From Entophlyctis helioformis (taxonomy: Eukaryota > Chytridiomycota > Chytridiomycetes > Chytridiales > Chytriomycetaceae): 64,000 nucleotides of DNA. Under the pieces are notes generated by a model. That model saw only the letters and a program-made list of their open reading frames with translations. It did not search any database and had not been told where the DNA came from. Position 1 is the first letter of the stretch, and each line of letters begins with the position of its first letter. The translations under genes were made by a program, and so were the position numbers. Location of the stretch: the NCBI GenBank assembly GCA_025526915.1, contig JAHLKH010000083.1, forward strand, positions 47,258-111,257, given 5' to 3'. Positions 9,704 through 63,063 of the stretch are shown here, piece by piece.

Positions 9704-10020
9704 TCAGAATGCGTTGTTCCAAGTGCTCACACTGCACGCGCCGCCAGCCTCAGTGTGTGCAGCTGCAAGCCATGCGTCCAAGCCACGCTGCTCATGTGCT
9801 GCTCGGATAGCAACGATCTGCTCATCTGTGCACTCAAGCGCAAAGTGCGCAGTCTTCAGCGTGTTTCCCAGATCCTCGCCGCACAGGATGCAGCATGAAC
9901 CGTCACCAATCGAGTAGGCTGGGTCGAGCAGGTTGGCAATGATGGCGCGGCGAGCCGTGTAGATGCCGCCCATAAGAGAGAGCGTCAGAAACCGAGTGCC
10001 TTCTGAGCGTCGCGGGTCAA
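9704..10020 (-). pseudogene. Possible C-terminal remnant of a non-LTR retrotransposon
   Basis: The minus-strand frame ends with a segment of about 100 residues containing RFLTLSLMGGIYTARR, a cysteine-histidine cluster CILCG...HFALEC and a TGA at 9704. A C-x2-C...H-x4-C knuckle after the last helices is typical of the 3' end of non-LTR reverse transcriptase ORFs. No RT motifs are seen upstream, and the frame then runs antisense to the next gene's 5' region. The assignment is by motif shape only. Confidence 0.3.
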
Positions 10021-10283
10021 AGACCGGATCGCGACTGACGCTGGCTGTCTTGTGGCATCTGGAAGACAGTGTGGATGGCAGCCGTATCGCACTTGCTGGC
10101 AGACTTGAGCGTGACTGCCAAGCCGTATGCCATGAGGCGTGGCAGGTCTCGACACTTGCTGCCAAGACCGCTGCACAGCAAGCGAGCGAGCAGACCAGCA
10201 AAGCCAAGAGTGCTGCAGATGGACGCGGTCGCGCAGAGTGGATCTTGTCCTCACAGCCACAAAGCGAGCAAGCGGCTGTGACG

Positions 10284-11966
10284 ATGCAGCCAACGCATAC
10301 GACAGACAACGCAGACGCAACGACAGCCAGCGACGAGCATGTGCACCGTCTGCAGAGCCAGCTGCAGAGCACAGCCGAGCAGCTGGTTGCCCTTGGCCGC
10401 ACCGACATTGTGCTGGCTGTGGTCGAGCAGGTCGTTGGAGCGAGCGGCAGCCAAGCCGTCGAGCCAGGGTTGCCAGGACAGCCGCAAGTGCAGCCGCCAG
10501 CCAAGCGACTCAAGGCAACAGCAGCAGCAGCAACGACTGCCCAGCCAGGTGTGCCTCGCTATGTGGTGCCGCCAGCCACTGGCGACCTTGCATACGGACG
10601 CAGCCACTGGGACGGCAAGCCCGCCGAGATCCACGCCATGATCCTCAAGCACGCCGGCCCACTCACTCGCTTCCTGTGCGGCCTGCTCGGCAACGCCGCC
10701 ACACTCGACGAAGCGACTAAGTTGCAGCTGTGGATCGAAGCGTTCAAGATGGACTGGCAGGGCGATCTGGCGCTGCTGCCTGACGTTGAGCTGACGGCCG
10801 ACAACGGACTCTTGCTCGCACACTCTCGGTCCATGTACGATCGTCTCTGCAAGCGCTTTCCTCAGCACACCGAGACCAATGCCAAGTATGCGAGAGACGA
10901 CGCAGACAACAACAACTACTACGACTCGTTCATCTACAATCCCTGCGACAGTGACCGTCTGCTTCTCATCGCCATGCGGCACGGCTGGTTCGATCTGCTC
11001 GACTTTTCGTTTCCGATCGCACTCGCTCGCTGTGCCATCCGCTATGGATGCCTCGATCTGCTCAAGCATCTCGACGACAAGTACAGCACGCTTCAACGCT
11101 GGATGGCAAAGCACCATCCGACAAGTGAGCTCTGGCACGGCGCAGTTGATCAAGCAGCGCAATACGGGCATCTCGAAGTTGTGCACTACTTGTTTGATGT
11201 GGGTATAACGGGATGCACGACAAAGGCAATGGACGGCGCGGCTGCCAACGGACATCTGCACGTTGTCAAGTGGCTGCACGAGAATCGGACGGAAGGTTGC
11301 ACGACAAGGGCGATGGATAAGGCGGCCGAAAACGACCACCTTCATGTCGTCATCTGGCTTCACGAGAACACGACTGCAGGATGCACGACTGCTGCAATGG
11401 ATTGGGCGGCTTTCTTCGGCCATCTGCATGTCGTCAAGTGGCTCCACGAGAATCGGACGGAAGGATGCACGACTGATGCAATGGACAAGGCGATCAGGAA
11501 TGGACATATGCATGTCGTCATCTGGCTTCACGAAAATCGGACGGAAGGGTGCACGGAACAGGCGATGTGCGAAGCTGCGAAATATGGCTACTTTGATATT
11601 GTGCAGCGGCTCTACGAAACCCGAAGGAAAGTGTACACGCCTTACGTAGTGAATGAGGCCATTTACCTAGGGCACATGGACATCGTCAAGTACTTGCATT
11701 CCAAGGGCATCCGCGCATTACACTGCGCCATTGATTACTCGTCCAAAAATGGCAACGCCGAGATGCTGCAGTACCTGATGGATTACGGATACGACTTTGA
11801 ACCCAAAGCACTCAACAACGCCAAAACAACCGAGATCGCCAGCATTCTCCTTGGCAGTCTCACGCTTGACAGGGCACAGGCGCTGCTTGTCCGCGCGAAA
11901 CAAGGAGAAGGCAACAAGGCCACCATCAAGCGACTCGAGTCGACCATCAAGAAGCTGCAGAAGTAG
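10284..11966 (+). CDS. Ankyrin-repeat protein, NRTEGCT subfamily
   Basis: 560 residues from the ATG of MQPTHTTDN. Another in-frame ATG at 9963 would add 107 residues of poor composition overlapping the retroelement-like remnant, so the later start is preferred. Residues about 1-90 are low complexity. Next comes KPAEIHAMILKHAGPLTRFL, an F-box-like helix pair shared by all ankyrin genes of the window. The rest is ankyrin repeats of about 28 residues with consensus AA..GHLHVVKWLHENRTEGCTT.AMD. The frame is intact and there are no introns. Function unknown; F-box plus repeats would fit a substrate adaptor for a ubiquitin ligase, which is inference. Confidence 0.85.
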   Translation: MQPTHTTDNADATTASDEHVHRLQSQLQSTAEQLVALGRTDIVLAVVEQVVGASGSQAVEPGLPGQPQVQPPAKRLKATAAAATTAQPGVPRYVVPPATGDLAYGRSHWDGKPAEIHAMILKHAGPLTRFLCGLLGNAATLDEATKLQLWIEAFKMDWQGDLALLPDVELTADNGLLLAHSRSMYDRLCKRFPQHTETNAKYARDDADNNNYYDSFIYNPCDSDRLLLIAMRHGWFDLLDFSFPIALARCAIRYGCLDLLKHLDDKYSTLQRWMAKHHPTSELWHGAVDQAAQYGHLEVVHYLFDVGITGCTTKAMDGAAANGHLHVVKWLHENRTEGCTTRAMDKAAENDHLHVVIWLHENTTAGCTTAAMDWAAFFGHLHVVKWLHENRTEGCTTDAMDKAIRNGHMHVVIWLHENRTEGCTEQAMCEAAKYGYFDIVQRLYETRRKVYTPYVVNEAIYLGHMDIVKYLHSKGIRALHCAIDYSSKNGNAEMLQYLMDYGYDFEPKALNNAKTTEIASILLGSLTLDRAQALLVRAKQGEGNKATIKRLESTIKKLQK

Positions 11967-27715: not shown

Positions 27716-27967
27716 AGATCACGAGTGTGCTTGCTTTGGTGGATTGGCAGCTAAAGGCCAGACATGCTGGCTGCTGTGTCGATGGCAGACATGGATGATG
27801 CACAATACGACACATGCCATTCGCAGTCTGTTTGTGAGTGATGTCTGCTGTCAGCCCATGCCTGCACACGCTTGACAGTCGCCGCGCCAGCATCGCGCAG
27901 ATCTGGATGTTTGGTTTCGTGGCGAGTCAGCCTGGAAACCAACAAACAGTCACAGCGACCACGACGC

Positions 27968-29776
27968 ATGGAGCAGCAGGAGAGTGGACGACTGGCTGGC
28001 AAGGCGGCGGCTGTGGCGGCTGTGGCGGCCAGCACAAAGCACTCGATGTCGCCATCTTCCAACAACGCTGACGGCAACAACAGCAACATCAACGGCGAGC
28101 CGCACACTGCTTACGCTGCAGCAGCCAGCGACGACGACGACGACGACGACGACGAAGAGGAAGACGAATACGAATACGAAGACGACGCCGACGGAGACAG
28201 CAGCAGCGAGAGCGACAATTTCTACGGCAGCGATGACACCGACCAACGCAGCGATGGCAGCGACGACCGCACGGACGACGACAGCGACAACAGCAACGAC
28301 GACGAAGCAACCAAAAGCCACATCAGCAACGATGCCGCCGTGGCTGCCACCGGCGAGATGCCGTGGGGATCGTCGTGGTGGGACAGGATGCCCGCCGAGA
28401 TCCGCATCATGATCCTCGACTTTGTTGGCCCTCTCCAGCGCTTCCTCAACGGACAGTTTGGCACCAAACGGCAGCTCGAGAAGAACACCAAGGAAGCCAG
28501 AGCAACTGCCGTGGCGATTTGGGTCGATGCCTTCAAGCGTGACTGGAAGGGCAACCTCTATCTGCTGCCAGACATGCTGCTATGGGTCGATCAAGGTCTC
28601 TGCGAAGCGCACTCTCGGTCCATGTACAAGCGCCTGTGTCGTCACTTTCGGGGTTGCCAGAGGCTCATTTTCGACAAACCGCGGAGGCCCAGCAACCTGA
28701 ATACCTATCATTACAAAGGTCGTTTGTATCTAGATGTTCAGTCGCTGCTCAACATCCCCGCGCGCCACGGCTGGTTCGATCTGCTCGACTTTAAGCACCC
28801 GATCACTCTTGGCTGGTTTGCGATCGAGTATGGCCATCCTGCTCTCCTGCGCCACCTCGCTTTCACGCTCAAGGTCTTCGATCTCTCGCGGTTCAAACGG
28901 TTTCACCATGAGCCGGCTATGGATATTGCTGCTTCAAGTGGCAGCCTGGAGATTGTGCAGATGCTTCACGACGCGGGCAACAACAACTGCACGGCCGACG
29001 CGATGGACAGTGCGGCTTCTGATGGTCGATTGGACATGGTGCAGTGGCTCCATACCAACAGGCGGGAGGGATGCACCGAATGGGCTTCACGTAGTGCGGC
29101 TGGGAGCGGTCATCTGCATGTCGTCAAATGGCTGGTCGAGCACTATCCATCCAAGATTCAAAAAGGCTCAGCTATGGCTGCTGCCCGCGAGGGACACCTT
29201 AACATTCTCGCGTTCCTGCTTCCTCGGTTCCCTGACTTTGATGCTCAAGCCGGCATCAATGATGCAGCCCGCGAGGGACACGTTGACATTCTCGCGTTCC
29301 TGCTTCCTCGGTTCCCTGACGTTAATGTTCAAGCCGGCATCAATGATGCAGCCGAAAAAGGACACGTTGACGTTCTCGCGTTCCTGCTTCCTCGGTTCCC
29401 TGGCTGTGACGTTCAAGCCGCCATGCGTCTTGCCGCATACAAAGGCCACCTGACGGTGATCAAGTGGCTCCACGCACACCGACCCGACGCATTCACGCCA
29501 CGCGTATTCACAGTGGCTGTGGAACAAGTTCATAACGACATCGTGCGGTTCTTGCTGGACTCTGGATATTTGTTTGACATCGAGACCCTCACAAAGTCCA
29601 AGAATTTCTCTCTCAGGAGAATGATGGTCAACAGTCTGACACTCGAGCGCGCTCAGGAACTGTTGGAGGAGGCGTACTGGCCGAAATACAGGCACATTGT
29701 CAACCGGCTCGAAGCTACAGTCAAGCGGCTTAAGAATGCCAAAGCCAACGCAGACAACAAAGCCATCGCAAAGTAG
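27968..29776 (+). CDS. Ankyrin-repeat protein, array copy 3
   Basis: 602 residues. The linker is acidic but differs in length and order from copies 1 and 2. Between residues about 440 and 520, consecutive units (FPDFDAQAGINDAAREGHVD, FPDVNVQAGINDAAEKGHVD) show further repeat duplication. The tail diverges from copies 1 and 2 (EEAYWPKYRHIVNRLEATVK). It ends in TAG followed in frame by RKTSSK and TGA. Confidence 0.85.
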   Translation: MEQQESGRLAGKAAAVAAVAASTKHSMSPSSNNADGNNSNINGEPHTAYAAAASDDDDDDDDEEEDEYEYEDDADGDSSSESDNFYGSDDTDQRSDGSDDRTDDDSDNSNDDEATKSHISNDAAVAATGEMPWGSSWWDRMPAEIRIMILDFVGPLQRFLNGQFGTKRQLEKNTKEARATAVAIWVDAFKRDWKGNLYLLPDMLLWVDQGLCEAHSRSMYKRLCRHFRGCQRLIFDKPRRPSNLNTYHYKGRLYLDVQSLLNIPARHGWFDLLDFKHPITLGWFAIEYGHPALLRHLAFTLKVFDLSRFKRFHHEPAMDIAASSGSLEIVQMLHDAGNNNCTADAMDSAASDGRLDMVQWLHTNRREGCTEWASRSAAGSGHLHVVKWLVEHYPSKIQKGSAMAAAREGHLNILAFLLPRFPDFDAQAGINDAAREGHVDILAFLLPRFPDVNVQAGINDAAEKGHVDVLAFLLPRFPGCDVQAAMRLAAYKGHLTVIKWLHAHRPDAFTPRVFTVAVEQVHNDIVRFLLDSGYLFDIETLTKSKNFSLRRMMVNSLTLERAQELLEEAYWPKYRHIVNRLEATVKRLKNAKANADNKAIAK

Positions 29777-38981: not shown

Positions 38982-40709
38982 TCATTTCGAACTGGTCTTG
39001 CGCTTCTTGGGAATGGCTTCCTTGTCTGCCTTGGCTTTGGCTTTGGCTTTGGCTTTCTCGAGCTGACTGACTGCTGCCTCGAGTAACTTGACGATCGTCT
39101 TGTATCCCTTTTCTTTCGCATCCTCAAGCAGAACCCGAGCACGGCCAAGTGTCAGACTGTAGACCATCATTTGCTTGAGGGTCCGATCCCAGGCCTTCGC
39201 GATAGTGTCAACATCAAACACATGTCCAGTGTCCAGCAAGAACCGCACAACGTTGGCACGGCCTCGTTCCACAGCCACTGTGAATACGCGTGGCGTGAAT
39301 GCGTCGGGTCGGTGTTCGTGGAACCACTTGATGACCGTAAGGTGGCCTTCGTATGCGGCTTGTTCCATGGCGGCTTGAACATCAAGGTCTGGGAACCGAG
39401 GAACCAGGAACTCGAGTATGTCAACGTGTCCATTTTCGGCTGCAGCGAAGACGGCGCCGTTTTGAATCTCGGCTGGATAGTGCTCGGCCAGCCATTTGAC
39501 GACATGCAGATGACCGTTCTTAGCCGTCCAATACAAAGCCGCTGTGGTGCACCTTTCGCGCCTCATGGTATGGAGCCACTGTATCACGTCCAAGTAGCCA
39601 CCTGCTGCTGCAATGTCCAATGCTTTGGCCGTGCAGTGGTTGTTGCCCGCGTCGTGAAGCATCTGCACAATCTCCAGGCTGCCACTTCTAGCAGCAACAT
39701 CCATGGCATTCTCATGGCGAAACCGTTTGAACTGGGACAGATCGACGACCTTGAGTGTGAAAGCAAGGTGACGCAGGAGGGCAGGATGGCCGTACTTGAT
39801 CGCAAACCAGCCAAGAGTGATCGGGTGCCTAAAGTCGAGCAGATCGAACCAGCCGTGGCGCGCGGGGATGTGGAGCAGCGACTGGTCACGGAAAGACAAA
39901 CGACCTTTGTAATGATAGGTATTCAGGTTGCTGGGCCTTCGTGGTTTGACGAAAATGAGCCTATTGTAACCCCGAAACCGGAGACACAGGCGCTCGTACA
40001 TGGACCGAGAGCGCACTTCGCAGAGACCTCCCCTGACATCGATTTGTTTGCCTGGCAGCAGATCCAAGTTGCCCTTCCAGTCACGCTTAAAGGCATCGAC
40101 CCAGATCGCCACAGACGCTGGCTTCCCTTCAAAACGTCTCGCAGGCTGCTGCTTGGTGCCGAGCTGTCCGTTGAGGAAGCGCTGGAGAGGGCCAACAAAG
40201 TCGAGGATCATGACGCGGATCTCTGCGGGCATCCTGTCCCACCACGATGACCCCCACGGCATCTCGCCGGTGGCAGCCACGGCAGCATCGTTGCTGATGT
40301 GGCTTTTGGTTGCGTCGTTGCTGTTGCTGTAGTCGTCATCGTCACTATCGCTGCAATCATCGTCCTCGTCGTCGTCGAAGCTGCCGTCGTGACTGTCGCT
40401 GCCGTTGCCCTCTTCGCTGCGTTCGTCGCTGTCGTCGCTGCCGTTATTGTCGATCTCGCTCTCGCTGAAAAAGCAACGGTCGAAGTTGCTGTCGCTGTCG
40501 CTGTCGTCGTCAAAGTCACTATCGTCAGCATCGTCGTTGTTGCTGTTGGCTGTTGGGGCTGAAGACGGAGACGCAGAGCGCTGTCGCTTGCTGTTGCTGC
40601 TTCCCTTGCGCACGCCGCCCTTGACGGTCGCAGCCGCTCGCTTTGTGCTGGCCGCCACAGCCGTCGTCACCGCCTTGCCAGCCAGCCGTCCACTCGCTCG
40701 TCGCTCCAT
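38982..40709 (-). CDS. Ankyrin-repeat protein, array copy 6 (combined linker, PKKRK tail)
   Basis: 575 residues from MERRASGRLAGKA; an in-frame ATG at 40784 would add 25 residues but is ATC in copy 5. The linker carries both the basic KGSSNSKRQRSA block and a long Asp/Ser acidic run, so it combines both subtypes. The site that is TAG in copies 1, 3, 5 and 7 is AAG here, giving the C-terminus IPKKRKTSSK, a classical monopartite nuclear localisation pattern. Confidence 0.85.
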   Translation of the reverse strand: MERRASGRLAGKAVTTAVAASTKRAAATVKGGVRKGSSNSKRQRSASPSSAPTANSNNDDADDSDFDDDSDSDSNFDRCFFSESEIDNNGSDDSDERSEEGNGSDSHDGSFDDDEDDDCSDSDDDDYSNSNDATKSHISNDAAVAATGEMPWGSSWWDRMPAEIRVMILDFVGPLQRFLNGQLGTKQQPARRFEGKPASVAIWVDAFKRDWKGNLDLLPGKQIDVRGGLCEVRSRSMYERLCLRFRGYNRLIFVKPRRPSNLNTYHYKGRLSFRDQSLLHIPARHGWFDLLDFRHPITLGWFAIKYGHPALLRHLAFTLKVVDLSQFKRFRHENAMDVAARSGSLEIVQMLHDAGNNHCTAKALDIAAAGGYLDVIQWLHTMRRERCTTAALYWTAKNGHLHVVKWLAEHYPAEIQNGAVFAAAENGHVDILEFLVPRFPDLDVQAAMEQAAYEGHLTVIKWFHEHRPDAFTPRVFTVAVERGRANVVRFLLDTGHVFDVDTIAKAWDRTLKQMMVYSLTLGRARVLLEDAKEKGYKTIVKLLEAAVSQLEKAKAKAKAKADKEAIPKKRKTSSK

Positions 40710-40975
40710 GCGTTGTTGCGACTGTTTGTGCACCGACAGATCAACGTCGCGGAAACCCGTCAAAAGGATTGCAAGCGCGGCCATTGTCAAGAGTGTGCAG
40801 GCATGGGCTGACAGCAGACATCACTCTCAGACAGACTGGGAATGGCATGCATCGTGCTATGCATCATCCATGTCTGCCATCGACACATCAACACAGCTGC
40901 CAGCATGTCTGTCCTTCAACTGCCAATCCATCAAAGCGAGCACACTCATGATCTTCATTTCGAACTGGTCTTGCG

Positions 40976-42508
40976 CTACTTTGCGATGGCTTCGTTGTCT
41001 GCCTTGGCTTCAGCTTGCTCGAGTCGCCTGACTGCTGCCTTAAGCTGGTTGATGATGGTCGAATAAAGCCATTCCTTTGCTGTTGCTTTTCTCAGCAGTG
41101 CCCGAGCGCGTTCGAGTGTCAGACTGTCGAGCATCATTTGCTCGATAGCCGGATTATAGGCCTCCTTGAACTGAGCCACATCAAACCAATATCCACAATC
41201 CAGAAAGAACCGCACAATGTCGGCACGGTTATGTTCCACAGCCACTGTGAATACATGTCGAGGGCGAGCGTCGGGTCGGTGTTCATGGAACAACTTGATC
41301 AAATCAAGGCGGCCGCGCTCTGCGGCAAGGCGCATGGCGGCTTGAACGTCACAGCCAGGAAACCGAGGAAGCAGGAATGCGAGAACGTCAACGTGTCCAT
41401 TATTGGCTGCAGCTTGAATGGCGTCTTGAACGTCATTGTCAGGGAATCGAGGAAGTAGGAACGCGAGAACGTCAACGTGCCCTTTTTGGGCTGCCTTAAT
41501 GACGGCGTCTTTGTCAACCGTTGACGGATAGTGCTCGACCAGCCATTCGAGGACATGCAGATGACCGTTTTCAGCCGCGAACTTCGAAGCCCATTCGGTG
41601 CATCCCTCGCGCCGGTTGGCATGCAGCCACTGCATCACGTCCAAGTGGCCACCAAAAGCCGCACATGCCATTGTATGGGCCGTGCAGTGGTTGTTGCCCG
41701 CGTCGTGCAGCATCTGCACAATCTCCAGGCTGCCACTTTCAGCAGCAACATCCATGGCTCGCAGTTTGCGAAACTCTCGAAACTGTGGCAGATCGACGAC
41801 CTTGAGCGTGAAAGCGAGGTGGCGCAGGAGAGCAGCATGGCCGTACTCGATCGCAAACCAGCCAAGAGTGATCGGGTGCTTAAAGTCGAGCAGATCGAAC
41901 CAGCCATGGCGCGCAGGGATGTGGAGCTGAGAATAATCGCTGAAAGACAAACAACCTTTGTAATGATAGGTATTCAGGTTGCTGGGCCTCTCTGATGTTG
42001 CAGAAAGGAGCCTCTGGCAACCCCGAAAGCGACGACACAGGCGCTCGTACATGGACCGAGAGCGCACTTCGCAGAGACCATCCTTGAACGCGAGAGGTGT
42101 GTCTGGCAGCAGATCCAGGTTGCCCTTCCAGTCACGCTTAAAGGCATCGACCCAGATCGCCACGGCAGTTGCTCTGGTTTCCTTGCTCCTTTCGAGCTGC
42201 TCCTTGGTGCCGAGCTGTCCGTTGAGGAACTTGAGGAGCGGGCTGTTGAGGTCCATGATCATGATGCGGATCTCTGCGGGCATCTTGTCCCACCACGACG
42301 ACCCCCACGGCATCTCGCCGGTGGCAGCCGCGGCAGCATTGTTGCTGTTGCTGGCTGTTGGGGCTGAAGACGGAGACGCCGAGCGCTGTCGCTTGCTGCT
42401 GCTGCTTCCCTTGCGCACGCCGCCCTTGACGGTCGCAGCCGCTCGCTGTGTGCTGGTCGCCACAGCCGCCGCCTTGCCAGCCAGCCGTCCACTCTCCTGC
42501 TGTTCCAT
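40976..42508 (-). CDS. Ankyrin-repeat protein, array copy 7 (chimeric 5' end)
   Basis: 510 residues. Begins MEQQESGRLAGKA like copies 1-4 and shares their upstream spacer (ETNKQSQRPQR in the leader frame), but then has the basic VKGGVRKGSSSSKRQRSA linker of copies 5 and 6. This mix indicates recombination close to the start codon. The F-box-like motif is altered (KMPAEIRIMIMDLNSPLLKF). TAG at 40976 is followed in frame by RKTSSK and TGA. Confidence 0.85.
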   Translation of the reverse strand: MEQQESGRLAGKAAAVATSTQRAAATVKGGVRKGSSSSKRQRSASPSSAPTASNSNNAAAAATGEMPWGSSWWDKMPAEIRIMIMDLNSPLLKFLNGQLGTKEQLERSKETRATAVAIWVDAFKRDWKGNLDLLPDTPLAFKDGLCEVRSRSMYERLCRRFRGCQRLLSATSERPSNLNTYHYKGCLSFSDYSQLHIPARHGWFDLLDFKHPITLGWFAIEYGHAALLRHLAFTLKVVDLPQFREFRKLRAMDVAAESGSLEIVQMLHDAGNNHCTAHTMACAAFGGHLDVMQWLHANRREGCTEWASKFAAENGHLHVLEWLVEHYPSTVDKDAVIKAAQKGHVDVLAFLLPRFPDNDVQDAIQAAANNGHVDVLAFLLPRFPGCDVQAAMRLAAERGRLDLIKLFHEHRPDARPRHVFTVAVEHNRADIVRFFLDCGYWFDVAQFKEAYNPAIEQMMLDSLTLERARALLRKATAKEWLYSTIINQLKAAVRRLEQAEAKADNEAIAK

Positions 42509-42630
42509 GCGTTGTGGTCGCTGTGACTGTTTGTTGGTTTCCAGGCAGACACGCCACAAAACCAAACATTCCAGATCTGCGCGATGCTGGCGCGGCCATT
42601 CTCAAGCGTGTGCATCCAAGCTTTCTTCAT

Positions 42631-45600
42631 TCACGACTCGTCGTCATACTGATCCGGCCTGTACCCCTTCCGCTGCGTCAGTTTCCCCATGCTCGCATGC
42701 ATCCGCAGCTTGGATATCGACGACGCCGATCCGTACATGCCGCCGCTCTGTCCCGCAAGCCCGCCTGTCGGCTCCTCGTCCTCTTCCATCAGCTCCGACA
42801 GGATCCGGTCTTCCACATCGCCGCCGTCGTTGCGCTTGACGCTGTGCGACCGGTTGCTCCAGCCCTTGGCGCCGCGTGCATTCATGTTGCCGTCGTCGTC
42901 AATGTAGTCGTCGTCGTTGTAGTTGACGGCATCGACGTTGCCGGCGTCGTCGTCGTAGGACGGGTCGTCTTCCCGGCCGCGCGAATGCGCGTTCTGGAGC
43001 GAGTCGTGGTCAGAGTCTGTGCCCCCATCGCCATCGTCTGCGTCCCTGCTGCCGCGTCGTGGGCCGGTCGTGTGTCGCTTAAGTGACCCGCTGCCATGAT
43101 ACTGCTTCTGCTGTTGATGCTGTTGCCGGTCGTCCTCCTCTTCCTCGTCTTCTTCTTCGAGCGGGTCGAGCGAGCTCCTGTTGTTGCCGAAACTGATGGT
43201 CGCTTTGCGCAGCGATATGCCTCCACCGCCCATGTTGCCGACCGTGCCAAGATTGCCCATGCCCGTGCCCATGCCCATGCCCATGCCCATGCCGTCGTCA
43301 TCGTTCATCTCGGCAGACATGCCATTGGGTGTATACGCGCCATACGAATAGTATCCGCCGTCTCCACCGCCACCCGTGTAGGCGGCAGCACCACCGCCCA
43401 TGTATGCCGACATCTTGTGCGTCGCGTATCCGCCGACTTGGGACGCGCCAACCTTGAACTGCTCTTCAAACGGCGACACGCGGCCCATCTCGAGCCGCTC
43501 GATGCGGATCTGCACGCCTAACCAGACTGCCAGAACGATCAGTAAAAACGCAGTTGTTGTGGCCATGGCGGCGCCGGTGGCCTTGAAGCTAGGCGGGATG
43601 GCGTAGAGCTTGATGATCCGCTGCGACGTGAACGAGCAGTAGGTGTAGTTGGACGGCGACGACGTGTCGAGCGGGTTGGTTGTCGCCTCGATGAGAAAGT
43701 AGTATGATGGACTGGGCTGCGAGAGCGTGGGCAGGATATTTTCGCACGGGCTGCCGTGATTACAGACCCATCTGTCGCAGCACCGCGTTAGTCAATGGGC
43801 TCTCTACCCACTAAGACGCGTTGTTCTGCTTTACCTCATGCCGACGGATTTGCTGAGAAGCGGCGAGCCGTCGGGGAGCTTCCATGGCGATGCTGTCATC
43901 CACACCAATGTAGTGCTGCCACCGCTTCCCGGATTGACAGCTGCCATCTCGCTGCTAGTGTAGGCCGTGACGGTGTCCAGCGTGGGCCCGCCGCCAACGA
44001 TGCGCAGCGTATGCAGGTCCGTGTACTCCAAATGCGTCGAGGCAATCGGATCGTCAATCACCAGGCTCGGCATGAACTCTGCGTCAAACGAGACGCAGGG
44101 CACGGCTGTCGACCCGTCGACACACTCAAACTCGGGCAGCGTCTCTGTGTGCGACATGAAGTCCAGTTTGGTGTGAAGGGGGCAGCCCGAGTACACGGGT
44201 ATGCGGATGGATGTCGAGAGGCTGCTGCTGTCCATGGAGCAGTCCATCGAGTCGGATTCCAGCGTGATGGACAGCACAGTGGGCGGCGATGTGTACACGG
44301 CCGCCATTTGCACACCGGCGAGCCCAAGATCCGTCACGAGGATGCGGTACGTGACGCTGGCGTCTTGGACAGACTCGACCCGATGCGACCGGATCTGAAT
44401 GGCAGAGATGTCGCTCAGCTTGAATGAAAGGCGGAGGCTCGCGAGGTCGGCTGGCGATGCCGCTGCCAGCTTGATCTCGAAATTGTACTGGTTGTACATG
44501 TCGAGGTAGATGGACGACGGTGGCTGGGACTGAGTGACCAGCGTCGTGTCAATGACCGGACGTGTGTCGTCCTTGAGATCGCTCAGCCTGGTCTTGACAC
44601 TACCCTCGCACGGATTGTCAGCGGACGACGCCACATGCGCCAGTGCCACTCACCGCCATGACTCACCTGCGCAGAATCGTGCCGGTCTGGATGTACCGGT
44701 AGGATATGCCAGTCACTGGACAGCTCTTCCCGCTCGCGAACTCTGAGAACGACACCACGTCCGTGTACCGCAGCAGGCTCCGTGCCAACGTGCCAGTGCT
44801 CGCACCCACATTGACAGCGAGACTCTGTTCGTACAAATCGTCCGCGTCGTCGTAGTGCAGCATGTACACGGTGCCCGGCGTTGACCTGGACCGCGACAGC
44901 GGCACAAGCCGCCGCGACCCGGTCAGTCCGGTCCATATCTGGTTGTCTGAGGTGCCGAACGCGTACGGGCCAGACGGCGATGACACGAACGAGGTGATTG
45001 GCGTGGATGCCATGGACCGCGCGAGGAACATGGACTTGCCCGCATCGGGACTGTGTCAGCAACACGTGTTAGCAGCACGTCCACCATTTCCTTTGGCGCA
45101 TTGCAAGAGACGGCATGCGATGAGCAACACACCTGTAGAAAAGAGCCGAGCCGTAGACATAGAAGTCTGACGAGATGGACGCATGGAATGCCAGCCGTGT
45201 CAAGGCAACAGCCTCGGGCGACGTCACGGTCAGCAGTCCCGAAAACGCATCGGTGACCGAGGCGTCGGTGTTCCACAGTCGCTGGAACGGCGTCTGGCCG
45301 GATACCTCTGTGGACGCGGGCACGGTCGAGGGGAACCTGAACGTCAGCACCCACGACGTGTCGGACAGCCTGTAAGTGACGAGGTAGTAGACGGATGCCG
45401 ATTGTACGAGAAAGACGATCGCGCGGGTGCCGGTGGATGGCGATGACGCGTCCAGGATTGTGATGGCGGCGCTGGAGAAGATGGCATCGGCCATGGTGCG
45501 GCTTGATGCATCCTGCGCAGCATGTCGATCATCGCATGTTAGTTGGATGGGATGCGGCAGTGGGCCATGCCATGCCATGCCATTCCACAACGCGTGCATG

Positions 45601-47008
45601 ACGACTTGCCAGCAGCTCGGCGATGGTGTATGCTTCGCCGCGCAGCCACCATACGCGGCCTGCGTCTGTGCCGGACCCGATAAACACGACCGGCGACCAT
45701 GCGGACACAATGTTTGCTGGTTGCTGGGTCGGGTACGCCATGCGGCCAATGCATTTGGCCAGTACGTTGGTCCACTGCACCGATGTTTTGGATGTATACG
45801 GCACGTTGGCCATGACGATGCCGCCCTGTACATGCAGCAGAGTCGAGTTCCTCAGCATGATCGTGCCGGCGATCTTGAGTGTCGAAGGCGATGACGCGCC
45901 ACTGCACACGTCGACATCTGCCGTCAATGGGGGTCAGTTTCTGGCTGCCATTGTGGAATGAGAGCATGAGGATGCTTGCGCACCTGCTTGGACGGATGAC
46001 GGCACAGTGAAGGACAAGAGACTGATGCTGCTAAACTTGTCGGTCGATTGCAGCACCAGGCTCCCGCCCGTGCTGGTGACGGTCGACACCCAGTGCGCCG
46101 ACAGGCCCGGCACATGCGCGATGCTCGCGCTCACGCTTGCTCCAAAGACGGCATGGCTGATGGGTGCTGCGATGGCACTCCCCACGGAGATATCCGAGAC
46201 GCCGGCCGGGATCCACGAGACGCGGATGCTGAACACGAGCGGAAGGATGCCGCCGATAGCGAGCCGCGGCGTGACGATAGCGCCGAGCGTGACAGACATG
46301 GCGGCAGTACCCGCGCTGCTGGTCGTGAACGGCACCGTCCAGTCCACGTCGCCAGCCTTTATATCTGCGACAGCCCCGCGCGCTTCCAGTGTTAGCAAGA
46401 CGGTCTGGCTGGCGCGTTGTGGCGAGCATGGATGCTGCTCACTGTATATCCAAGTGCCGTTGAGGGACCGTGTCGACAACGCCGACTGCCGAACGTCCGT
46501 CTCGATCTCGGGGTACCCGCCCATGGTCGACAGCTCTGCCGCGCACACCTCGCACACCGAGCTGTCTGCCTTTGTTGTCCGGCACGGCACGGTCAGTCGA
46601 CGGTCATGGCCACCAGGACGGGAGACGGATGGCGGCACTCACACTATTGAGGATACGGATCTTGAGATAGTAGCTGGTTTTCTCGCGCACGAGGGCGGCT
46701 GCCGTGCCCCATGGCACTGCCGTGCTCGAGTAGTTGTAGTTTGCCTCGGTGCGTTCAACCACAGTCCAGTCCCTAAACACATGAACGTTGCATGTCAGAT
46801 GTACAGACACGCAGACGGGCAGACGGACAGACAGTGTGCGTGCGAGCATGGGGTGAGCGCACCACTTGTAGAGGGCAGCGTCGCGAGCCAGTGACGACGC
46901 CGACTGCACTGGCGGCATGCAGGGCAGGAGCAGCAGCACCAGCAGTGGCAGCAGTTGCAGCATTGCTGGCACGACCGACACGCTCGCGACACGAAACGCG
47001 ACCATCAT
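42631..47008 (-). CDS. CatSper auxiliary subunit, delta/epsilon-like
   Basis: CatSper is the Ca2+ channel of sperm flagella; delta and epsilon are single-pass subunits with large extracellular heads. Eight exons (starts near 47008, 46772, 46569, 45917, 45512, 45050, 44599, 43771) join in frame to about 1279 residues. A signal peptide (LLPLLVLLLLPCMPPVQSAS) starts the protein. The head is beta-rich (FVSSPSGPYAFGTSDNQIW). The family-diagnostic region near residues 750-950 reads GCPLHTKLDF, FECVDGSTAVPC, LRIVGGGPTLDT, YTSSEM and LVWMTA, then WVCNHGSPC, SYYFLIEATTNPLD and YTYCSFTSQRIIKLYAIP, followed by one TM (TAFLLIVLAVWLGVQIRI). The cytosolic tail is long (about 290 residues) with a Met-Gly repeat and acidic clusters. 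No frameshifts. Confidence 0.8.
45513..45609 (-). other. GC-AG intron in the CatSper-like gene
   Basis: GAGCTGCTG/gcaagt...ctgcgcag/GATGCATCA joins AELL to DASSRT in phase 0. The adjacent GT donor would break the frame. Confidence 0.7.
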
Positions 47009-50327: not shown

Positions 50328-53300
50328 TCACACACGCCCGCCCGCCTGCGACTCGAGCAGCGCCAGCCGCGCGTGCAGCTGCTGGTTCTCGACGCGCACG
50401 CGCGCGAGCTCGCTCTCCAGGTCCGAGATGCGGCTCTGCAGCAGCCGCTGTTCTGCTTGTCCCGCCTGTTCTGCCTGCCCTGTACGAGCTGCCTGCCCCG
50501 CCTGCGCGTCGGGCTTTACTTGGCCGTGGCCGGGAAACGCCGACGCTGCCGGCAGCGACGACTGCGCAGACGACGACTCGGACGACGACAGCAGCTCAAG
50601 CGACGCGCCAGGCGTGCTCGTCGAGTGGTGATGTCCGTGCCCATGCACATGCCCGTGCCCATGCCCGTCCACGTGCCCCGCAAACAGCTCCAGCTCAAGC
50701 AGCTGCCCCGTCGTGGGCCGCTTGCACGGGTCGTCGGCCATCATCCACAGCACAAGCGCAGACTCCTTGGGCCGCGTCTTGAGGAACGTGTCCGGCAGGA
50801 TCCCCGCCCGCAGGTTGCTCAGCAGCGATGCGCGCTCCATGCTCGTCGACAGCGGGTGCAGCAGCTCAAACAGGATAATGCCGAGCGAGTACACGTCGGA
50901 CGGGTACGAGTACACTGTCGACTGGTTGCGCTTGGGATCCAGCTGCTCTGGCGACGCGTACTGTCAAGTTGCGTAGGTGCGTGGGTCGGTGGTTCGAGGG
51001 TCAGTCCAGCCGCACGGCTGTCACACAGATCAAGCGATGCACATACAGTCACCGTGCCGACGCCAATCGTCTGTGCAACGCGTCTCCCTTGCAGGCCCGG
51101 TCCGTCCTCGCTCGCCATCATGTCCGCCATGGTAGCCAACCCGAAATCGCCCAGTTTCCATTCGCCACCGCCACCGCTGCTGCTGCCACCGACGTGGCGT
51201 CCACGGCCGCCCTCGCCCACACCGTCCGGCTTCCAGTAAATATTCTTGGGCTTGATATCTCGGTGGATGAGGCCCATCGAATGCACGTGCTCAAGCCCCA
51301 GCAGGATATGCTGGAAACACGCCAGCGCCTCCGACTCGCGCAAATCGCCTGCATCCGCGTGCCGGCTTTGCGCGTACGACCCGTTCCGTTCTAGCAACCA
51401 GTCGTGCAGCGTCTGCTCGCAGAGCTCCATCTGGATAAACAGCGTCAGCTCGCTGGATGGCCGCATGGCCGTGCTGTGCAGTGGCTGGGACGGGCTGGTG
51501 CTCTCGATCGTGCTTGCTGTGTGCAGCGATATGGTTGTTGTTGATACAGACTTGCCTGCTGCCGATGCTTCCGTGCGTCCAGTCTGCGATGCCGCCACAA
51601 ACTGAATGTCGTCATCGTCCTCGTCATCCTCGTCATCCTCCTCATTATCATCATCATCCTCCTCATCCTCCTCCTCCTCCTCCTCCTCCGTCGACTCGTC
51701 GCGGCTCGACTCGGATGCAAGCCACGGCCGGCCGCCAGTCCCAGATGTTTCAATCAACGACGACTTGTTCTGCCGAGACTGCCGAGACCGCCGAGACGCG
51801 CCGGTCCAGTAGCTCGACTCTTCCTCATCGCCATACTCGTCATCAAATCCGTCATACGAGGGATCGCTCGCATCACTCGCCGATGAGCTCCACGGCACGG
51901 CATGCTCAAACCACGACGAGTAGTACCGCACAACGTGTGTGTCTGCAATCCGTGCCAGCAGCTTGACTTCCCGCAGTATCTGTCACCAGCCATTCGGAAT
52001 GAGCAACACGCACAAGGCGTCCAGGCATCCATCCATCCATCCATCGAGGACACTCACTCGCTCGAGATGCTTGGCACTGTGCTTGGTCAGCCGTATCTTC
52101 TTGATGGCATACTCGCGGCCGTCCAGCTTGTTGCGGCAGCGATGCACGCGGCCAAACGCACCGCGGCCCAGACAATCCAGCTCGATAAAGTCGTCCTTGT
52201 ACCGCGACGTCTGCGGCTGCAGGAAATCTGAAAAGTCGAGCGACAGGCCCCGTGCGCTAGGCAGCCCTGTTGTGCCAGATGCCGACCCCGACCCCGACCG
52301 GTGCACACCGGGATGGACCAGACTCGATCGCGAAAGCGAAATAGGCGTGCCGTCATCGGTGTACATGGGTTCGTCGTCCGAGGCTGTGCGGTGGGGTATG
52401 GCCATGGCCGGCGAGGCGAGGCTGGCAAGCGAGTTGGAGAGGGACTGGGTTGAATGCGAATGCGAGTGCGAGTGCGAGTGTGAGTCGGAATGCGAGCGGG
52501 CATGGGGCTGTGGCTCGGATGCAGCAGGCGACGACGCAGACGAGTGGAATGGATGACGACCCAGACCTGGCGGCGTGGCGGGCGGCGCGGGCTCGAGTGC
52601 CGTGTAGGTCAGCAGCCGCTGGCTGTTCTCGGACGCGTCGACGGCCGCCATGGCGTCAATGACCAGCTGCCGGAACGCGCGCTTGTAGCTCTCGCGGACG
52701 CCCGACAGCTCGTCGATGAAGTCGCTCGAATCGATGATCTGTCCAGCACGGAACGGGGCGGGGATTAGCAAGCGCCAGTTTGCAATGGCGTCGTCGCGGT
52801 GCCGGTGCATGCCCAGAACGTACTCCCATGTGCGACAGCTGCTTGCAGAGCACAAAGAACAGCCGCCGGTTGCGCTCGCCCGACTGGTCGTACAGCATGC
52901 AAAAGTTCTGTCGGTGTGGTGTGAGCGCTGCGCGTCAGCTCGCCATCCAGCTCGCCATCCAGCACGCCGTCCAGTTCGCCGTCCAGCGCGACGGGATCTG
53001 CACGCGGTCGGCACGCACCTCGAGAAGCGAGACAAGCAGCAGCTGCGATTGCCGGCTCTTGCGCAGCCGCTCCGTGCGGCGCTGCACCGCATACGCCGAC
53101 GACGGCGGCAGCTTGGCGTTGGCGTCCTTTGCGTTGGCGTCGTTGGCGTCCTTGGCGTCCTTGGCATGCACAGGCTGCTGGACATGCGGCGCGATGGGAT
53201 CCGCGTCCGGAACGTCCGAGTGCGACGCATCGAGGCCGTCGGCAGCGCGAGCAGCATGAGTCGGAATGCCATGGCTCAGCTGCGGGACGGGCTGGCCGTG

Positions 53301-61430: not shown

Positions 61431-63063
61431 ATGCCCAACAAGCGACGCAAAGTCCAGAGACAACCTGCTGCCACGGCACAACCACCAACAGCTGCCGCCT
61501 GCCTGCCCGCCTCGGCTGTTGATGCAGTCGTGCAGGCTGCTTCTTCTGCCGCCGCTGCTATGGCTGCCACATCCGCCGTGCAGCCTGTCCCAGCCCCACT
61601 CGTTGCCGCTCCTCAGCCATCTGCGGCCGTCGTCGTCGCTCCTCCGCCGCTGCGTGAGCTGCTGCCTGGCCAGAGCTGGTGGGACTGGATGCCGCCCACC
61701 GTCCGTCGCCGTCTGCTCGCTCTCGCTGGCATCGATCCAGACGCAAGCCGATGGGGCACACTCCCATACGAGATCCAGCTCATGATCCTCAAGGCAGCCG
61801 GCCCTCTCACGCTATTCCTCAACGGCCTGCTGGGCGACAAGAGCAGCCTCAAGAAAGCGACGATCCATGCGTTGTGGAGCGATGTCATCACCCAAGACTG
61901 GCAAGGCGACCAGGATCTGCTGCCCGACGTTGCACTCTATGCTGGCGAGGTTGATAACTTCGAGAGTGACCCTTCTGTCGGCATGCGGTCACTGTCTGTC
62001 TCTCGGTCCATGTACGACTGTCTGTGCATTCGCTTTCCAGACCAAGCCAGCGCAGACGACGGCAATGGTGCTGCTCGTCGCAACTACTATGTGACCGACA
62101 TCTTCTGCCCACCTGATCTCTTCACATTTGCTCGCCTCCGACACGTCCCCATGCGCAACTGCTGGTTTGATCTCGTCGACTTCTCGTACCCGATCGATCT
62201 TGGCTGGAAGGCGATCAGGTTCGGTTTCGCAGGACTCCTCAAGCATCTTGTTGCGCACCACGGCGTTGATCTCAGCAAGTTCAAGAGTTTTGATGAATGG
62301 ATGGCGATGGATCTGGCTGCTTGGTCTGGCCACCTCGACATTCTCAAGATGCTACACAATGCAGGCAATACGTGGTGCTCGTATCGTGCGATGGACGTGG
62401 CGGCAACTCGATGTTTTCTGCATGTTGTGCAGTTTCTGCATGACCACCGTATTGAAGGATGCACGGTAGATGCAATGGATGCTGCAGCCCGTAACGGCCA
62501 CCTCGATGTGGTCAAGTGGCTGCATTCCAACCGCACGGAAGGATGCACGGAGTGGGCAATGGATTATGCGGCAGGGCATGGCCACCTCGACATTGTGCAG
62601 TTTCTGCATGCCAACCGCACCGAAGTATGCACAGCAAGGGCGATGGATTATGCGGCTACTTTCGGCCATCTCGACATTGTGCAGTGGCTGCATTCCAACC
62701 GCACTGAAGGATGCACAACAAAGGCAATGGATCGTGCAGCCAGAAATGGACATCTGGATATCGTGCAATGGCTGCATGCCAACCGCACTGAAGGATGCAT
62801 AACTAACGCCATCGATGATGCAGCCATTAATGGGCATCTGCATGTGGTGCAGTTCCTGGTCGCGTGCGGTTACCCCATTCACGCTCAAGGCACTCCGTCG
62901 AGCACAGAATGACGCCGTTGTTGACTTTTTGCTGGACAGCGTGTCCCTTGCACGTCTGTTGAAGCTGCTTCGAAAGGCCAGACGCAGAGGTGGATGTCCC
63001 ATTCTTGCTACGCGTCTTAAGCATGTTGTTTCCAAGAAGAAGGAATCGGCTGCTGGCCAATAA
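61431..63063 (+). CDS. Ankyrin-repeat protein, NRTEGCT subfamily, frameshifted near the end
   Basis: Start MPNKRRKVQRQ (basic, nuclear-signal-like), then an Ala/Pro-rich stretch, then PYEIQLMILKAAGPLTLFL, the F-box-like element. About nine 28-residue repeats follow (AARNGHLDIVQWLHANRTEG). Closest relative in the window is the gene at 10284, not the arrays. The frame as given stops at 62912 after an abrupt ACGYPIHAQGTPSSTE. Dropping one C from the C4 at 62873-62876 instead gives FTLKALRRAQNDAVVDFLLD, matching the C-terminal pattern of the other ankyrin genes, and runs to the TAA at 63063 (about 543 residues). Confidence 0.8.

Follow-up and report, generated by a model that had tools for sequence, protein, structure and literature searches.

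A CatSper gamma gene and relatives of the CatSper core subunits, with an altered pore filter, in the chytrid Entophlyctis helioformis

The window analysed here is a stretch of 64,000 nucleotides (C83:47258-111257) from Entophlyctis helioformis (NCBI taxonomy: Chytridiomycota, Chytridiales), whose strain JEL805 has been compared alongside Batrachochytrium salamandrivorans and Polyrhizophydium stewartii in one paper (PMC11797018; here and below, cited papers are drawn on for parts of their text). Positions 42631-47008 of the window hold an intact gene on the minus strand, with ATG at 47008 and TGA ending at 42631, exactly the limits given by an initial annotation made from the letters alone. Judged from profile and structure matches, its product is the gamma auxiliary subunit of CatSper, the calcium channel found in the tails of animal sperm, and a previously unnamed member of a known family. 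Taken together with the CatSper relatives found elsewhere in the genome, it is highly probable that this gene belongs to a CatSper core complex, which likely sits in the zoospore flagellum and whose calcium selectivity is probably weakened.

Identification of the gene product as CatSper gamma

An eight-exon join of the gene gives 1275 aa with a lone stop at its end, while the deposited model (P0001; nine exons, 1253 aa) is labelled in GenBank as "hypothetical protein BC831DRAFT_464210" and has 99% identity across the entire query region. Using hmmscan on the spliced eight-exon protein (limit E 10, but HMMER filters discard most matches above about 0.1), CATSPERG_C was matched at E=2.5e-18 with 67.1 bits against a cut-off of 27.6 (67.0 bits with the deposited model), and CATSPERG_Ig-like at E 0.055 with 13.9 bits, under its cut-off of 27. 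No family besides these two was reported for the spliced protein within these limits, and CATSPERD-E_C (PF22850), filters permitting, was also not reported at E<=10. Among solved structures, two sequences matched at E<=1 (7eeb_F and 9ubw_F; E=8.5e-23 and 1e-22), and both carry the name CatSper gamma 2; 7eeb is from mouse. Residues 774-977 in the eight-exon reading align to residues 872-1078 of 7eeb_F.

The initial annotation proposed a CatSper delta/epsilon-type subunit. A CatSper auxiliary subunit in a flagellated fungus was rightly recognized, but the profile and solved-structure searches point to gamma as the paralogue; with CATSPERG_C as the best match, no unrelated membrane protein comes out on top. 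The motif series on which the proposal was built is present in full (FECVDGSTAVPC, VGGGPTLDT, YTSSEM, LVW, WVCNHGSPC and YTYC). However, these motifs, which were called diagnostic of delta/epsilon, align with solved CatSper gamma, in which their counterparts are FDCV..MPC, VVGGGRTLNT, YTEEEI, LIWKT, WLCLENSPC and TYC. That the protein is nevertheless a delta or epsilon subunit has a negligible probability: the general architecture is shared, with a signal peptide ahead of a large ectodomain and a single membrane helix, as are Cys-bearing motifs in the C-terminal region, and the separate epsilon gene of this genome (contig C217) shows a comparable plan, but CATSPERG_C scores 67 bits where CATSPERD-E_C goes unreported, gamma alone appears among the solved structures at E<=1, and epsilon sits at another locus.

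Compared with solved CatSper gamma, the chytrid protein shares the C-terminal extracellular domain, the Cys-bearing motifs, VGGG.TL.T, W.C..SPC, TYC and the single membrane helix. It differs in its tail, which runs for about 290 residues past the membrane segment, while 67 residues follow the aligned part in 7eeb_F, and in that the well-aligned part is about 204 of 1275 residues. As to the beta-propeller and head domains of the ectodomain, there is no Pfam match before residue 668, and residues 484-563 align to solved gamma at 5 bits. Compared with CatSper epsilon and delta, gamma is likewise an auxiliary subunit of one complex with a shared overall plan, but the chytrid gamma matches neither their profile nor their chains. 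A protein search with gamma returned only the gene itself (P0001) among the 7991 scored candidates sharing most words; gamma of other fungi was not surveyed.

Second haplotype and constraint on gamma

Searching the genome with CATSPERG_C, two places were found, on C83 and C175. Five long blocks (93.4-98.6% identity), interrupted in a repeat cluster, make the second contig colinear with positions 1-54465 of the window, and we read it as an unmerged alternate haplotype of the window region. A lineage-specific duplication of gamma was considered and rejected, since the second copy sits on this colinear contig. In the C175 copy the frame is open and the border dinucleotides of all eight introns are kept, including those of a GC-AG intron.

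Over 1252 codons, the two haplotype copies of gamma are separated by 13.5 nonsynonymous and 34.5 synonymous changes (dN 0.0048, dS 0.0379, ratio 0.127), and gamma is therefore under purifying selection. That the observation is due to chance is excluded by the E-values of CATSPERG_C and the structures, together with the second haplotype, with its open frame, kept intron borders and this dN/dS.

Gene model and protein layout

The features of the gene, all on the minus strand of the window, are as follows.

47008-46863, 46772-46643, 46569-46443, 46364-45984, 45917-45610, 45512-45133, 45050-44667, 44599-43835, 43771-42631, minus: exons of the CatSper gamma gene in the deposited model P0001
46365..46442, minus: 78-base intron of the deposited model (GTGAGC...CGCAG, in frame), absent from the eight-exon reading
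45513..45609, minus: GC-AG intron, border hexamers the same in both haplotypes
46901..47008, minus: hydrophobic N-terminus (about residues 1-36), probably a signal peptide (hydropathy only)
44323..44520, minus: CATSPERG Ig-like domain PF22851, weak match below the Pfam cut-off (E=0.054)
43534..44130, minus: CATSPERG C-terminal domain PF22846, residues 776-953 of P0001, span including one intron
43504..43569, minus: sole membrane-spanning segment (hydropathy), at about residues 942-963 of P0001
42634..43503, minus: tail of about 290 residues past the membrane segment, Gly/Met-rich and then acidic

The eight exons of the initial annotation do join in frame and stay open for 1275 aa, but the deposited model has nine. 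Relative to the eight-exon reading, P0001 has an extra 78-base intron (46442-46365), and its next-to-last exon begins 12 bases earlier, at 44599. The 78-base stretch contains no stop in frame, which allows either reading. Divergence between haplotypes is 3.8% (3 bases) in this stretch and 2.4% and 0.8% in the exons on either side, and because it exceeds that of the flanking exons, we lean weakly to an intron rather than coding sequence.

Hydropathy is highest in two peaks, one starting at residue 10 and the other at residue 964 (eight-exon numbering); a lower peak at residue 189 (1.8) is not counted as a membrane helix. The two strongly hydrophobic stretches, the first of them at the N-terminus, agree, by hydropathy alone, with the signal peptide and single transmembrane helix described before. 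On the same basis, the protein matches the CatSper gamma plan of a signal peptide, a large ectodomain and one membrane helix.

Other CatSper subunits in the genome

The initial annotation expected a CatSper channel in a fungus with flagellated zoospores, and the gene content of the genome supports this. Relatives of all four pore subunits are found (on C47, C42, C48 and C82), together with beta, epsilon and radial-spoke genes. The radial spoke family, a flagellar marker, is matched at 1.4e-65. Contig C23 contains beta, with CATSPERB_C at 6.3e-51 for the spliced C-terminal part of the gene. CATSPERD-E_C gives two matches genome-wide (5.7e-13 and 1.7e-11), both of which are pieces of one gene on C217. 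The protein of this gene matches CATSPERE_NTD2 at 5.7e-8, and solved epsilon at 7.5e-31 compared with 1.2e-19 for delta; by these scores it is CatSper epsilon. No second delta/epsilon locus was seen in the genome search with CATSPERD-E_C. Delta is described as arising later in evolution in the part of PMC5362262 consulted, which agrees with a single delta/epsilon locus here.

For the pore subunits, the best CatSper chain is CatSper1 for the gene on C47 (1.4e-28; among the best 60 of 142 matches), CatSper3 for that on C48 (1.5e-28; among the best 60 of 149 matches), and CatSper4 for that on C82 (3.1e-29, vs 1.5e-19 for CatSper3; among the best 60 of 154 matches). The assignment of these three is based on the best single-subunit chain, on likeness to proteins named CatSper 1, 3 or 4 by their submitters, and on the presence of beta, gamma and epsilon in the same genome. 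CatSper2, on C42, is the top of all chains for its gene (8e-39). It appeared to be absent at first, as it was missed by the PF00520 and PF08016 searches; a query consisting of a human CatSper2 region, which itself matches solved CatSper2 at 437 bits, then located it. In the alignment, CatSper2 keeps three of the seven basic residues (R, K, K) of the mammalian S4 stretch RVCRVLRSLKLFARFRQIK. A simple gene finder overran into adjacent genes and mis-spliced gamma, and it served only for reading exons.

As a side observation, none of the 12 matches (E<=10) from the genome search with PF00520 belongs to a four-domain locus, thus no channel of Cav or Cch1 type was seen at this sensitivity, in a search that also missed CatSper2 and so does not prove absence.

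Residues of the pore filter

The filter position, whose acidic residue is held to bind and select calcium, was scored as the third of T-x-D-x-W. The filters of E. helioformis are TLARW in CatSper1 (codon GCC at C47:96995-96997, within C47:96983-97015), TLDQW in CatSper2, CADGW in CatSper3 (codon GAT) and TMIGW in CatSper4 (codon ATT at C82:41523-41525, within C82:41505-41543). Across subunits 1 to 4, the filter residue is thus Ala/Asp/Asp/Ile, followed by Arg, Gln, Gly and Gly, respectively. In animals, each of the four pore subunits has Asp in its pore loop; this rule does not extend to this fungus, in which CatSper1 and CatSper4 deviate. Like animal CatSper1-4, the chytrid relatives are single six-helix subunits with a filter of the T-x-D-x-W type, but the aspartate reported as "absolutely conserved" in invertebrate and vertebrate CatSpers (PMC2572835, in the part consulted) gives way to Ala in CatSper1 and to Ile in CatSper4.

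In order to place these changes, we compared 26 of the best 120 of 254 proteins from one search and all 5 from another, none with a gap at the filter position. In the CatSper1-like alignment (8 rows), Asp is found in seven, and Ala solely in E. helioformis; two bacterial-type outgroup rows beside this set have Glu. For example, the CatSper1-like protein of Allomyces macrogynus reads TLDDW, in contrast to TLARW here. CatSper3-like proteins are acidic in all 16 rows (15 Asp, 1 Glu). Among the 6 CatSper4-like rows, Ile occurs in three (TMIGW, TPIGW, TQIGW), which come from E. helioformis, P. stewartii and an unnamed protein (P0123), while Paraphysoderma and two unnamed proteins have Asp. On this distribution, the isoleucine of CatSper4 is a shared, older change. 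The Arg after the filter position of CatSper1 is also found in P. stewartii (TLDRW); the position after the filter aspartate has been argued to affect the preference for calcium or sodium (PMC10120453, in part).

Since the filter reads Ala/Asp/Asp/Ile instead of four Asp, the channel is probably less selective for calcium than sperm CatSper. The most serious alternative here is a sequencing or assembly error at the CatSper1 alanine, with CatSper4 alone breaking the aspartate rule. The GCC codon lies one base from an Asp codon, Ala comes from a single assembly, and P. stewartii, which has the nearest orthologue, shows Asp. However, such an error leaves unexplained the Ile of CatSper4, found in two named species and an unnamed protein, and we consider this alternative unlikely.

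CatSper as such is already known from flagellated fungi, both in print and by GenBank names, and the new part is the variant of the pore filter. Several chytrid proteins have been named CatSper 1, 3 or 4 by database submitters. Allomyces was in a genome set searched for CatSper, in which epsilon shares an ancient origin and a pattern of loss with beta and gamma (PMC5362262, in part), and CATSPER1 or CATSPER2 is among the orthogroups specific to flagellated fungi, although the complex is not universally retained (PMC13358043, in part). No published account of a lost filter aspartate in fungal CatSper was found in a literature search of titles, abstract openings and some passages, a scope that leaves its absence unproven.

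Proposed complex and alternative explanations

With the gamma gene, the core CatSper set is complete in a chytrid. Given the genes seen for CatSper1-4 relatives, beta, epsilon and gamma, a complete core complex could form. By homology with the solved mammalian complex, gamma would be a type I membrane protein, whose large extracellular part may cover one pore subunit from outside while its single membrane helix docks alongside; by the same comparison, it would be needed for complex assembly. The co-presence with flagellar genes suggests the zoospore flagellar membrane as the likely site, where cation entry through the channel may modulate the flagellar beat.

Several points weigh against this picture of a CatSper core complex. 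The stretch by which gamma is identified covers about 204 of 1275 residues (16%), the remaining ectodomain being without a significant match, and the constraint measured by dN/dS covers gamma alone of the CatSper genes. For the CatSper1, 3 and 4 relatives, the summed scores of four-domain sodium/calcium channels, of which several domains match, exceed those of the CatSper chains. The CatSper2 gene (C42:1 to about 1940) is 5'-truncated where the contig runs out, and the CatSper1 alanine depends, as said above, on a single codon of one assembly.

Somewhat less likely than a sequence error in CatSper1 is that the CatSper genes are relics of a channel decaying after loss of function, as might be read from the two of four filter aspartates that are gone and from the S4 of CatSper2 with its three of seven mammalian basic residues. 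Against such decay, gamma is intact on both haplotypes at a dN/dS of 0.127, and the other six genes, in the parts read with crude gene models, are without a stop or frame break beyond intron effects. The Ile of CatSper4 is common to P. stewartii and one unnamed protein, hence no fresh decay.

Calcium signalling is widely used by fungi, and on this general ground the protein and its partners could act outside the flagellum, e.g. in the thallus or intracellular membranes. This is improbable, more so than decay, as radial-spoke genes are present and CatSper subunits are counted as flagellar proteins of flagellated fungi, with retention not universal (PMC13358043, in part).

Starting from a flagellar channel with a weakened filter, we tentatively suggest, as a possibility and short of being probable, that the chytrid lineage including E. 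helioformis and P. stewartii evolved an asymmetric CatSper filter, poorly selective for calcium, for depolarising or trimming the flagellar membrane. If true, this would be a natural CatSper that is perhaps permeable to monovalent ions, and its role in the zoospore would be this depolarising or trimming and not the gating of calcium. A loose analogy for the pore of E. helioformis is offered by animal sodium channels, which have an asymmetric, lysine-bearing filter.

The importance of each filter aspartate is hard to test because, as of 2017, CatSper had not been functionally expressed in heterologous systems (PMC5362262, in part). The pore genes described here are a natural experiment on which filter aspartates matter: one or two of them have been lost from the lineage, with gamma still under constraint, which suggests that a CatSper complex can persist without the full aspartate ring. 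The E. helioformis lineage thus offers organisms in which the selectivity of an aspartate-depleted CatSper could be measured.

Neighbouring genes in the window

Ankyrin-repeat genes are located at 9963-11966, 27872-29776, 38982-40790, 40976-42565 and 61431-62912 of the window (five of the ten ORFs, open reading frames, scanned). This family is hugely expanded: a first look across the genome gave 760 candidates, and 84 of these were scored. Members lie next to gamma and, by eye, also next to the epsilon and CatSper1 genes, probably by chance, and a linkage between CatSper and ankyrin-repeat genes was dropped given the 760 candidates. At 47.1-49.5 kb, on the minus strand, lies a multi-helix protein resembling an amino acid transporter, as judged by eye from its C175 counterpart. 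Further along, 51983-53272 (minus strand) matches the helical domain of heme-regulated eIF2-alpha kinase (4.1e-7), together with a sub-threshold start of a kinase domain.

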